Of a stretch of DNA of 64,000 bases, positions 6,813 to 25,545 are shown piece by piece. A program made the translations under genes and the position numbers. Position 1 is the first letter of the stretch. Every line of letters starts with the position of its first letter. This stretch comes from Pseudomonas sp. MYb185 (GTDB taxonomy: Bacteria; Pseudomonadota; Gammaproteobacteria; Pseudomonadales; Pseudomonadaceae). Where the stretch lies: assembly GCF_002979975.1 (NCBI RefSeq), contig NZ_PCQD01000004.1, positions 316,486 to 380,485 on the forward strand, read 5' to 3'. Under the pieces are notes generated by a model that was given only the letters and a program-made list of their open reading frames with translations, did no database searches and had not been told where the DNA came from.

Positions 6813-6970
6813 TGCGAGAACCTCATGATCTGGACGTCTGGATAGAGGTTGCGAACAGAATGGATGGAATGACTCTGTCGCCCTCGGGTCATTGCAGCAT
6901 AGGGTACGACGTCGGGGCGGTGCAGGCGAGTGATTTTTGCCCCGGGCGGGCTGGGAGGAGGACAGATACA

Positions 6971-6998
6971 AGAAAACCCGGCCGAGGCCGGGTTTTCT
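6971..6998 (-). terminator. Strong intrinsic terminator after the cold-shock gene
   Basis: A 13-bp perfect inverted repeat (6971-6983 with 6986-6998) has a GGCC-rich core and flanking AAAA/TTTT. It lies 17 bp past the stop codon of the cold-shock gene on the minus strand. Confidence 0.85.
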
Positions 6999-7014
6999 GT
7001 TCAGACATCAAGGA

Positions 7015-7221
7015 TTAGTTGATGATCTGAATGTTCGCAGCTTGCTTGCCCTTAGGACCAGTAGTGATGTCGAAGGACACCTTCTGGTTCTCGGCAAGGG
7101 ATTTGAAGCCCTGAACCTTGATTTCGGAGAAGTGGGCGAACAGATCGTCACCGCCGCCGTCCGGAGTAATGAAGCCGAAGCCTTTGGTGTCGTTGAACCA
7201 CTTAACTGTACCAGTTGCCAT
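7015..7221 (-). CDS. Cold-shock protein (CspA/CapB family)
   Basis: 68 residues, a single cold-shock OB-fold domain. The nucleic-acid binding motifs RNP1 (KGFGFI) and RNP2 (DLFAHF) are both intact. Such proteins bind single-stranded RNA or DNA and melt RNA structure. AGGA lies about 10 nt upstream of the ATG. An AT-rich leader and promoter region of about 270 bp precedes it, as is common for csp genes. Which paralogue it is (CspA, CapB and others) cannot be decided from one gene. Confidence 0.95.
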
Positions 7222-7476
7222 TTCAGATAATTCCTATCAAATTGAAATACTTGAGCAATGCTCAATTAAAGCGTGGGAATCAAAGATTGCGAGAATGACA
7301 AACTTACGTACTGAAAGTGCGCTTGCAGCCTACTACTCTATCTCTTGAAAACCTACGCGCCCACTTTGCCCCGTAATACCGATCAAGTCAAGTTAATACT
7401 TTTATCGATGCCGGAGCTAAACGAACGAAATTCAGTATACGTCAGTTTGCGGAAATAGCACGCCTTTCGTCGGATA
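7222..7476 (-). promoter_or_regulatory. AT-rich leader/promoter region of the cold-shock gene
   Basis: This stretch is clearly richer in A and T than the surrounding DNA. Close to the start codon it can form a 6-bp hairpin (TTGAGC 7251-7256 with GCTCAA 7260-7265), about 30-45 nt upstream of the ATG on the minus strand. Long structured leaders control csp mRNA stability and translation in other bacteria. I could not fix a -35/-10 pair with confidence. Confidence 0.5.
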
Positions 7477-12465: not shown

Positions 12466-13644
12466 ATGTTACTGGGTCTGTTCAATGAAATGCGCGCTGC
12501 GAAGGTACCGGTATCGGTACGCGAGCTGCTGGACCTGATCAATGCGCTGAAGAACCATGTCGTGTTCGCCGACATGGACGAGTTCTATTACCTGGCGCGC
12601 ACGGTAATGGTCAAGGACGAGCGTCACTTCGACAAGTTCGACCGGGCCTTCGGCGCCTACTTCAATGGCCTGCAGGACCTCAACGAGTTGCTCGAGGCGC
12701 TGATTCCCGAGGACTGGCTGCGCAAGGAATTCGAGCGTCTGCTGACCGACGAGGAGCGCGAGCAGATCAAGTCGCTGGGCGGGCTGGACAAGCTGATCGA
12801 GGAGTTCAAGAAGCGCCTCGAGGAGCAGAAGGAGCGTCACGCCGGCGGCAACAAGTGGATCGGTACTGGCGGCACCAGCCCCTTCGGTTCCGGCGGCTAC
12901 AACCCGATGGGCATTCGTGTCGGCGATGCCGGCAAGCGCCAGGGGCGAGCGGCCAAGGTCTGGGAGCAGCGCGAGTACAAGAACCTGGATGATCAGGTCG
13001 AGCTGGGCACGCGCAACATCAAGGTGGCGCTGCGCCGCCTGCGCAAATTCGCCCGCACCGGCGCTGCCGAAGAGCTGGATATCGATGGCACCATCGACCA
13101 TACCGCACGTGACGGTGGCCTGCTGAACATCCAGATGCGACCGGAGCGGCGCAACGCGGTGAAGCTGCTGTTGCTGTTCGATATCGGCGGCTCGATGGAT
13201 GCGCACATCAAGGTCTGCGAGGAACTGTTCTCGGCCTGCCGTACCGAATTCAAGCACCTGGAATACTTCTACTTCCACAACTGTATCTACGAGTCGGTAT
13301 GGAAGGACAACATGCGTCGCACCAACGAGCGCATGCCGACCATGGATCTGCTGCACAAGTACGGGCCCGACTACAAGGTGGTGATCGTCGGCGATGCGGC
13401 CATGGCGCCCTACGAGATCACCCAGCCTGGTGGCAGCGTGGAGCACTGGAACGAAGAGGCCGGTCATGTCTGGATCACCCGCCTGCGGGAGAAGTATCCG
13501 AAGATGATCTGGATAAACCCCTATCCCAAGGATGCCTGGGGCTATACCACCTCCACGCGGATCATCCAGGATCTGATGGAGGACCACATGTATCCGCTGA
13601 CGCTGGAGGGGCTGGAGCAGGGGATGCGGTACCTGAGCAAGTAG
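12466..13644 (+). CDS. VWA-domain (CoxE-like) partner of MoxR ATPase
   Basis: 392 residues. An N-terminal helical part (1-120) with FNEMRAAKVPVSVRELLDL is followed by a Gly-rich linker (about 127-160) and a C-terminal VWA domain from about 230. The metal-binding motif reads DIGGSMD (239-245), i.e. DxGxS instead of the canonical DxSxS, a form seen in this CoxE-like subgroup. VWA domains bind protein partners through Mg2+ and work with the adjacent MoxR ATPase. The pair is probably one transcript. Its client is not known. Confidence 0.88.
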   Translation: MLLGLFNEMRAAKVPVSVRELLDLINALKNHVVFADMDEFYYLARTVMVKDERHFDKFDRAFGAYFNGLQDLNELLEALIPEDWLRKEFERLLTDEEREQIKSLGGLDKLIEEFKKRLEEQKERHAGGNKWIGTGGTSPFGSGGYNPMGIRVGDAGKRQGRAAKVWEQREYKNLDDQVELGTRNIKVALRRLRKFARTGAAEELDIDGTIDHTARDGGLLNIQMRPERRNAVKLLLLFDIGGSMDAHIKVCEELFSACRTEFKHLEYFYFHNCIYESVWKDNMRRTNERMPTMDLLHKYGPDYKVVIVGDAAMAPYEITQPGGSVEHWNEEAGHVWITRLREKYPKMIWINPYPKDAWGYTTSTRIIQDLMEDHMYPLTLEGLEQGMRYLSK

Positions 13645-13699
13645 GTTGTTGCGGTGGTCTGGCGCCGCTGTTGGTCTGTTGCTGATGATCTGAGTGGCC

Positions 13700-13804
13700 G
13701 CGTTTGCCGGTCGGGCCATGCAGACACGCCGCAAGTACATCCATGTAGGCTCGCGGTTGTCATCCATGACAACCGACGGTCTGCCTGACCCGCCCGGCAA
13801 ACGC
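13700..13804 (-). repeat. Structured repeat unit A
   Basis: Read on the minus strand: outer stem (13779-13804 with 13700-13725, 23 of 26 pairs), CGT, a 9-bp hairpin with loop TGGA (13754-13775), bridge CGAGCC, a 4-bp hairpin with loop TGGA (13736-13747), then the 10-nt joiner CTTGCGGCGT. The two GGA triplets are 23 nt apart. Confidence 0.85.
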
Positions 13805-13870
13805 TGCTGGAAATGTCGGTGTGGCGGAGGGGAAACCTGCAATGTGCACAGACTCATCGGCGGAGTTTGG

Positions 13871-13959
13871 CGACTGGCTCTGGTGGACCGTTTGATGGCA
13901 GGGATGCCATCAACGAGCCTACAGGGACGTACTTGCGGCGTGTCCACCAGAGCCAGTCG
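13871..13959 (+). repeat. Structured repeat unit B
   Basis: Outer stem of 18 perfect pairs (13871-13888 with 13942-13959), CGT, a 9-bp hairpin with loop GGGA (13892-13913), bridge CGAGCC, a short hairpin TACA-GGGA-CGTA (13920-13931), and joiner CTTGCGGCGT. Stems differ in sequence from unit A but keep pairing; joiner and bridge are identical. The GGA triplets are 23 nt apart. Confidence 0.88.
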
Positions 13960-14045
13960 ACAGGCGCCGTCCTTGCACTGAGCCAACAGCCACCAACCGC
14001 CGACACTCCACCACGCATGACACAGGCACCAACAGAGCAAATCAT

Positions 14046-14264
14046 ATGCCCCTGAAGCCCGGCCGCTACCGCCACTATAAAGGTAGGGACTACCAAGTCA
14101 TTGATGTTGCACGCCATTCCGAAACCGGGGAACAGTTGGTGGTCTATCGTACCTTGTACGGCGATTTCGATCTGTGGGTGCGGCCGCTGGACATGTTTAC
14201 CGAAGAGATAGAGGTAGGCGGCAAAACACATCCACGCTTTACCTTTATCAGCGAAGACGTGTAG
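14046..14264 (+). CDS. DUF1653 family protein
   Basis: 72 residues that fit the whole DUF1653 domain (LKPGRYRHYKGRDYQVIDVARHSE at the start, WVRPLDMF in the middle). These small cytoplasmic proteins are widespread and of unknown function. No good ribosome binding site is seen before the ATG; the short element-rich region ends just upstream. It lies 97 bp before topA on the same strand, a neighbourhood conserved in Pseudomonas. Confidence 0.85.
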   Translation: MPLKPGRYRHYKGRDYQVIDVARHSETGEQLVVYRTLYGDFDLWVRPLDMFTEEIEVGGKTHPRFTFISEDV

Positions 14265-21618: not shown

Positions 21619-21728
21619 GCCGTGCTGGCCGGCAGCCATTGCAGAACCGTCTGCGGCCAGGGATGGCCGTAGACGAGCGCCATGGATGGCGGGGTGCGCG
21701 TTCTGCAATGGCTGCCGGTCAGCGCGGT
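21619..21728 (+). repeat. Structured repeat unit C
   Basis: Same architecture as units A and B at 13.7-13.96 kb. Outer stem 21619-21647 with 21700-21728 (26 of 29 pairs), CGT, a 9-bp hairpin with loop GGGA (21651-21672), a 6-nt bridge ACGAGC, a 4-bp hairpin with loop TGGA (21679-21690) and a 9-10 nt joiner. The stem sequences share nothing with A or B. The GGA triplets are again 23 nt apart. Confidence 0.85.
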
Positions 21729-25457: not shown

Positions 25458-25545
25458 CGCGTGACGCCGGGCCCCTCTGGCGGTGGTTGGTCCCACCGTG
25501 ATGTCGGAGTCATAAGTTGATTCTTAACTTTGACCGGAGGGCCCC
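25458..25545 (+). promoter_or_regulatory. Structured leader with possible ribosome-binding-site sequestration
   Basis: GGGCCCCTCTGG (25469-25480) is nearly complementary to the ribosome binding site segment CCGGAGGGCCC (25534-25544), with one bulge and one mismatch. Between them lie a hairpin CGGTGG/CCACCG (25481-25498) and a 9-bp hairpin with one bulge (25509-25534) ending at the ribosome binding site. The fold suggests translational control of the downstream TerC/Alx gene. The E. coli relative alx has a pH/Mn2+-sensing leader, but the yybP-ykoY consensus is not recognisable here. Confidence 0.45.

Follow-up and report, generated by a model that had tools for sequence, protein, structure and literature searches.

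A divergent pair of three-way-junction units in Pseudomonas sp. MYb185 is related to the YPAL/RU-2 repeats of Yersinia and carries loops that fit the RsmA/CsrA consensus

Introduction

The genome of Pseudomonas sp. MYb185 contains, in the 64,000-nucleotide stretch analyzed here (contig NZ_PCQD01000004.1, positions 316,486 to 380,485, designated as the window), two structured units in divergent orientation, A and B. The pair lies between a reading frame ending at 13644 and a small frame starting near 14046, upstream of a topoisomerase-I-like frame (the nature of the frames was read from their translations). A preliminary description, made from the sequence alone, regarded the units as an inverted pair of one element whose stems differ in sequence and nevertheless close, attributed this to selection for a three-way junction in RNA or single-stranded DNA, and recognized no named family. 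The locus raises the questions of what kind of element the pair represents, which strand is selected to fold, and what could be the use of such a fold.

YPAL, the Yersinia palindromic sequence, was reportedly described by De Gregorio in 2006. In the passages concerned, Delihas (2007, PMC2759123) prints an RU-2 repeat and equates its class with YPAL. According to the pertinent part of a further paper (PMC2229807), YPAL/RU-2 is mobile and shows target duplications (3–26 bp) at or close to dyad symmetry, and the only hosts given for it there are Yersinia and Erwinia carotovora. In this study, we followed the window pair through its fold, its copies in other genomes, its covariation and its loops, and compared it with these repeats and with other known systems.

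Results

Fold of the window pair

The features of the pair are summarized in Table 1. The coordinates, joiners and lengths originally assigned to units A and B were all correct, and so was the observation that their different stems still close: the 26-nt outer arms of unit A form 23 Watson–Crick pairs and one G·T pair with two mismatches, and those of unit B pair at 18 of 18 positions by hand count. As for the hairpin geometry, the fold itself stands, but CGAGCC (the "bridge") and CTTGCGGCGT (the "joiner") are both partly paired, and hairpin 2, previously drawn as 4 bp with a 4-nt loop, is better read as 3 bp with a hexaloop.

The unit consists of a long outer stem, a hairpin 1 of 9–10 bp, and a stem 2 that combines a 3-bp hairpin with a GCC/GGC pairing beneath it, which leaves a bulge of 5 nt. 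Both hairpins of each unit have a hexaloop at the tip and a C-G closing pair. From 280 cores, we retained 266 after discarding those affected by locus ends or N, 246 after removing identical copies, and 217 with a clear hairpin 1; the bulge of stem 2 reads CTTGC in 164, TTCAC in 60 and TTTAC in 16 of the 246 units.

A repeat search detected the A/B inverted repeat (85 nt, 75% complementary) as well as each unit's own arms, and the core pattern, with up to three mismatches allowed, matched twice in the window versus a mean of 0.00 in 100 shuffles. At the Rfam gathering score, the only matches in the window were a cspA thermoregulator (6969-7346, minus strand, 93.8 bits) and a terC RNA (25459-25516, plus strand, 58 bits), and the unit pair had none.

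Table 1. Positions of the unit pair, its parts and a third unit in the window
Feature	Position	Strand	Evidence
Unit A, whole three-way junction	13700-13804	-	R1 match 13708-13796 (-), 80.5 bits; fold
Unit A, outer stem	13804-13779 with 13725-13700	-	
Unit A, hairpin 1	13775-13754	-	
Unit A, hexaloop 1, ATGGAT with C-G closing pair	13762-13767	-	family loop statistics
Unit A, hexaloop 2, ATGGAT with C-G closing pair	13739-13744	-	family loop statistics
Unit A, conserved 27-nt core	13726-13752	-	25/27 identical to Yersinia RU-2/YPAL
Middle between units A and B, part of the shared element in own-genome pairs	13805-13860	none	
Unit B, whole three-way junction	13871-13959	+	R1 match, 90.8 bits
Unit B, outer stem	13871-13888 with 13942-13959	+	
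Unit B, hairpin 1	13892-13913	+	
Unit B, hexaloop 1, AGGGAT with C-G closing pair	13900-13905	+	family loop statistics
Unit B, hexaloop 2, AGGGAC with C-G closing pair	13923-13928	+	family loop statistics
Unit B, conserved 27-nt core	13915-13941	+	core pattern match
Third, divergent unit of the A/B family, both CANGGATG loops kept	21630-21717	+	60.7 bits

Copies and distribution

The covariance-model search that the preliminary description had proposed gave a positive result in the own genome, the genus and the class, and the many further copies in related genomes were found: 33 units (matches of model R1) in the own genome, units in 28 of 37 congeneric genomes (8–69 each), and units in 53 of 274 gammaproteobacterial genomes. 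Nine congeners (G274, G275, G281, G283, G284, G285, G291, G292 and G297) had no units and offer a natural contrast for finding a mobiliser. In a draw from the whole phylum, 24 of 299 genomes carried units, all 24 inside Gammaproteobacteria, the share of this class among the 299 not being given by the survey; the copy numbers per genome are lower bounds in both the class survey, in which up to 16 candidates were scored for each genome, and the phylum draw, in which up to 14 were scored. A pattern scan with one genome per species gave at least 120 stretches, many of them from Xanthomonas; other genera among the matches listed were Stenotrophomonas, Halopseudomonas, Thiopseudomonas, Marinobacter and Lysobacter. 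Two unit-carrying loci (L076 and L113) belong to records titled Bacillus subtilis SK7B5, an assembly that is probably mislabelled or contaminated.

Neither phage sequences searched with unit B nor plasmid records searched with a Xanthomonas pair gave a match, and plasmid records searched with unit B gave one 47-bp Vibrio match. The enterobacterial (YPAL-like) version was present on 15 of 72,556 plasmid records, one of which scored 55.3 bits when checked with R1, and in 5 of 5,426 E. coli genomes. On the mobilizable E. coli plasmid NZ_CP067312.1 (L377), an unannotated YPAL-like unit is located between alcohol dehydrogenase and IS26 transposase genes.

Covariation and the strand that folds

The compensatory nature of the stem differences was borne out by alignment. 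Among 20 diverse units, which represent one of two length registers (20 and 19 units), 29 of the 33 pairs vary on both sides, and 93.8% of the cells are paired compared with 62.1% in shuffles. When 94 diverse units were aligned to a model built from the 20-unit set, 32 of the 33 pairs varied on both sides and 94.4% of the cells were paired, compared with 57.1% in shuffles, although fitting an alignment to a structure biases it in favor of that structure. The covariation score of the 94 units was 0.909, versus 0.194 for shuffled alignments, and slid partners reached no more than 0.135. This covariation, along with the copies in relatives, upholds the view that the three-way junction is maintained as a single-strand fold.

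Mismatches in the outer stem were counted in those units (302 of 336) and representatives (141 of 173) that had enough outer pairs. G·T outnumbered A·C by 139 to 20 in the 141 representatives and by 65 to 15 (p = 1e-8) in the cluster consensus, where clusters are not fully independent; the cluster consensus also had 35 G·A versus 10 C·T (p = 2e-4) and 14 G·G versus 6 C·C (p = 0.12). Within clusters, the outer-stem excess of G·T over A·C was weak (27:14, p = 0.06), and in hairpin 1 it was absent (25 versus 24). Since mutation should act equally on both strands, the lopsided ratio of G·T to A·C indicates that it is the fold of the GGA-bearing strand that matters. The fold under selection is that of the strand carrying the GGA loops. 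That G·A and G·G are favored besides G·T is compatible with single-stranded DNA as well as with RNA.

Loops and the RsmA/CsrA motif

Loop statistics were derived from the 94 aligned rows minus one weak row (L085:3804-3894), with 91 rows for hairpin 1 and 93 rows for hairpin 2. Both C-ANGGAN-G hexaloops occur in 88 of 93 units, which is also the number with the RsmA/CsrA-type feature of at least two hairpins bearing CANGGANG loops. In the hairpin 2 loop, the four fixed positions are A, G, G and A in all 93 units, and the second and sixth positions vary; the corresponding counts for hairpin 1 are A 91, G 89, G 90 and A 91 (n = 91). The two loops are spaced by 23 nt in 210 of 217 units. The consensus published for RsmE/CsrA, as the portions of the literature at hand give it, is (A/U)CANGGANG(U/A), and the SELEX consensus for E. 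coli CsrA appears there as RUACARGGAUGU. The unit loops fit the RsmA/CsrA consensus CANGGANG, and both free N positions coincide with the published ones. Judging from these loops, whether a unit transcript would bind RsmA/CsrA is an evenly balanced matter. In one Halopseudomonas pelagia unit (L019:913-939, minus strand), the hairpin 1 loop, CATCCCTG, is the reverse complement of the usual one, as would result from a flipping of the hairpin.

A sister family, which has the same architecture and a different core sequence, was found in genomes of the host's taxonomic family (31 units in G358, 41 in G362, 8 in G443 and 18 in G487). Two CANGGANG motifs are present in 38 of 39 of its units, and by simple reading-frame calls the family leans to sense, with 13 units versus 6 antisense. 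In three sister-family loci (L347, L348 and L349), a run of four or five T comes after the outer stem, so that these units may also serve as terminators. The Rfam family TwoAYGGAY (RF01731; cut-off, 43 bits) matched all three sister-family loci tested (58.2, 52.9 and 43.4 bits) and one R1 member, L337 (45.9 bits), and had no match in positions 13600-14050 of the window even at an E value of 1. The two hairpins of the units resemble those of TwoAYGGAY, whose loops are of the AYGGAY type; unit A has ATGGAT twice, unit B has AGGGAT and AGGGAC, and the family as a whole has ANGGAN. Unlike TwoAYGGAY, the window units have a different core and stem 2. A binding of CsrA to TwoAYGGAY is proposed in the relevant section of PMC4333381.

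TwoAYGGAY and PrrB_RsmZ share the Rfam clan CL00106. The sRNAs of the CsrB/RsmZ type in this clan have several hairpins with ANGGA loops, as the units do, but each of them is the product of one dedicated sRNA gene, whereas the repeat is scattered in tens of copies. An RsmZ match (58.7 bits) was obtained in the own genome too. In two Xanthomonas genomes, the RsmZ model gave three sub-threshold matches of at most 28.4 bits, and the two examined are not units. For a comparison with 40 unit-free genomes, 36 of the 53 genomes with units were used, selected chiefly by their higher copy number; csrA was not commoner with units (33/36 versus 34/40, p = 0.49). In G196, which is 98% complete and has 9 units, csrA was not detected.

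Relationship to described repeats

The core of unit A and that of RU-2 are identical at 25 of 27 positions, and RU-2 aligns over the unit and folds with both hairpins. YPAL/RU-2 and the window repeat share, besides the core, the three-way junction, both CANGGATG loops and the many intergenic copies, and the window repeat is almost certainly akin to YPAL/RU-2. They differ in that RU-2, in the part of PMC2759123 that presents it, is a 168-bp element with one unit, whereas the window has two divergent units; the element of the window family measures approximately 300 bp with two divergent units in many genomes, and single units also occur.

The Yersinia sRNA Ysr224 (RF02770) scored above the gathering score at 4 of 4 loci of G518, on the strand opposite to the unit. 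Unlike the unit, Ysr224 reads the opposite strand, without GGA loops, and its model had no match in the window. The idea that the pair belongs to no named family must be abandoned, as the unit is related to Yersinia YPAL/RU-2, overlaps Ysr224 on the other strand in G518, and is related to TwoAYGGAY; the preliminary description had itself regarded a match to a described repeat family as speaking against its view. The repeat family itself is already known, and the CsrA proposal for TwoAYGGAY is already published.

A literature search with the exact core string gave no match, shorter strings led to unrelated papers only, and strings of the sister family gave none. In the part of the open-access search results that was read, which is weak evidence, no paper joined YPAL, TwoAYGGAY and CsrA, and none reported this repeat outside enterobacteria, the latter being weak evidence in the same way.

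Arrangement and gene context

Of 147 neighboring unit pairs in the loci retrieved, 91 are divergent, with 180–200 or 260–280 nt as the commonest spacings of their cores. According to simple reading-frame calls, simple divergent pairs occupy 20 tandem, 17 convergent and 4 divergent gene contexts, versus 357, 156 and 151 gaps of these kinds, giving an excess in convergent contexts (p = 0.014) and a deficit in divergent ones (p = 0.053). Single units in tandem contexts are co-oriented in 18 cases and counter-oriented in 18, and 17 of 44 single units, which are not independent, lie on the G-rich replication strand. By the same kind of frame calls, units sense and antisense to tandem genes showed no clear difference in the integrity of the hairpin 2 loop (66/70 and 66/77, p = 0.11), the integrity of the hairpin 1 loop (56/70 and 63/77, p = 0.84) and the ratio of G·T to A·C (73:11 and 80:6, p = 0.21); selection therefore probably acts during propagation of the element rather than in each host transcript. 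Six same-strand units in one locus (L197) were considered as an integron-like array, a reading that was dropped because they sit between housekeeping-type genes of either orientation.

The pairs of the own genome have the element in common, including its middle, and their similarity ends just outside it. In four of these pairs (L253, L256, L257 and L258), the type of hairpin 2 (TACA or CCCA) is shuffled with respect to the outer stem and hairpin 1, and the units of each pair differ in this type, as if perfect inverted repeats were avoided.

The window locus was compared in eight relatives. The pair is present in five (G306, G280, G295, G276 and G288), G277 has one remnant, G278 is element-free with approximately 12 nt between the genes, and G301 has another palindromic repeat; the element-free site is too diverged for a target duplication to be read. 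By eye, G280 and G276 have the two stem types in swapped order relative to the window, unit B and its G306 counterpart are distinguished at one outer pair by a compensatory change, A-T to G-C, and a change in unit A of G306 lacks a matching one. The copies, the element-free relative G278 and the published work on YPAL point to mobility, and the pair is very probably a copy of a mobile repeat. In G301 (L240), it is a ATTGCGAGG...-type palindromic repeat that occupies the intergenic slot of the pair, as if the slot were a landing spot for repeats.

Mobilization and alternative explanations

One conceivable origin is a REP/REPIN-type repeat moved by the Y1 transposase RAYT, or a long terminal repeat flanking RAYT; repeats around RAYT-like genes are described in the relevant part of PMC3733652. 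The units resemble REP/REPIN/BIME with RAYT in forming many-copy inverted intergenic pairs, which moreover are in excess in convergent contexts, and in the above comparison Y1 genes were found in 28 of 36 unit-bearing and 22 of 40 unit-free genomes (p = 0.05). However, REP/REPIN appears in that part of the paper as a 20–40 bp palindrome with a GTAG or CGTC tag, whereas the present unit is a three-way junction of approximately 90–110 nt (88 or more). The transposase flanked by the repeat, as in REP with RAYT, is not what we observed: a unit lay near only 1 of 28 Y1 loci, 27 of which came from unit-bearing genomes, and no Y1 gene was found in 8 of the 36 unit-bearing genomes, one of these being G239, which is 99% complete and carries at least 16 units. 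Nor was a Y1 gene found in G279, which carries 32 units. Both Y1 transposase genes of the own genome (L288 and L289) are flanked by other repeats, which are TGTCGAGTTCNATCTCGACA-like and GTAGCGCAGGCGCGCTAC-like. This origin, already disfavored, is quite improbable. Among recurrent reading frames beside the units, the largest cluster (91 loci) was read as spurious translation of the repeat itself, and on reading, no cluster, including the second, from 16 loci, was recognized as a transposase or other mobility gene. No mobiliser of the units was found.

Still less credible is an origin of the pairing from replication slippage in near-palindromes, by which one arm is copied onto the other with no selection on the fold. 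The long near-palindromes and 25 paired double changes within clusters agree with it, but the near-invariant loops would be unexplained, and slippage correction acts alike on both strands and therefore cannot yield the 65:15 excess of G·T over A·C. The element might also be purely a single-stranded-DNA mobile repeat, in which a transposase-like protein reads the loops, the bulge and the junction and the match to CANGGANG is coincidental. The indifference of the copies to transcript sense, the favoring of G·A and G·G as well as G·T, and the conservation of bulge and junction nucleotides are as expected from such a repeat, yet the loops persist in the sister family despite its changed core and bulge, both free loop positions are those of the published RsmE/CsrA consensus, and no such transposase-like protein was found beside the units. 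On balance, we consider a repeat that acts solely as DNA unlikely.

Discussion

We favor, with a probability of roughly 0.6, the reading of the pair as a mobile repeat of the YPAL type that is non-autonomous and that, once transcribed, can offer a docking site to an RsmA/CsrA dimer. The repeat would be a mostly chromosomal one of the YPAL/RU-2 kind, an intergenic element of approximately 300 bp made of two divergent three-way-junction units, and it may spread via a folded single strand, namely the one with the GGA loops, handled by some enzyme in trans. In RNA, a sense unit would offer two C-ANGGAN-G hairpins 23 nt apart, on which one RsmA/CsrA dimer could dock, and because the units diverge, read-through from either side would produce exactly one sense unit. 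A role in RNA is supported by the loop motif and by the fact that the sister family retains it, and a role in DNA by the indifference to orientation and the favoring of G·A along with G·T. The lack of sense preference among the copies fits poorly with selection on host transcripts and counts against our reading, as do the similar frequency of csrA with and without units, the missing G·T excess in hairpin 1 and its weakness within clusters, and the failure of the window units to match TwoAYGGAY. The two roles are compatible and can hold together, in that the element would move as DNA and, when transcribed, present RsmA with a site already formed.

More tentatively, YPAL, the TwoAYGGAY RNAs and the window-type repeats may constitute one superfamily of mobile modules that carry a docking site for an RsmA/CsrA dimer in either transcription direction, and with tens of copies a genome, that of Xanthomonas for instance, could then possess an RsmA sponge that is distributed and evolvable. 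Such a view brings together subjects that were treated apart in the literature consulted: YPAL as a mobile repeat, TwoAYGGAY as an RNA for which a link to CsrA has been proposed, and the repeats that lie between genes in Xanthomonas, Stenotrophomonas, Halopseudomonas and other genera. A global regulator could be titrated or rewired by mobile repeats, provided that RsmA binds the units, and the restraint of RsmA in Xanthomonas, for which the pertinent passage of PMC3937308 reports no rsmB homologue, would become testable. In one Xanthomonas prunicola locus, a unit at approximately 581-608 is followed closely downstream, on its own strand, by an Rfam match to the sRNA sX9 (L018:437-512, minus strand, 100.4 bits).
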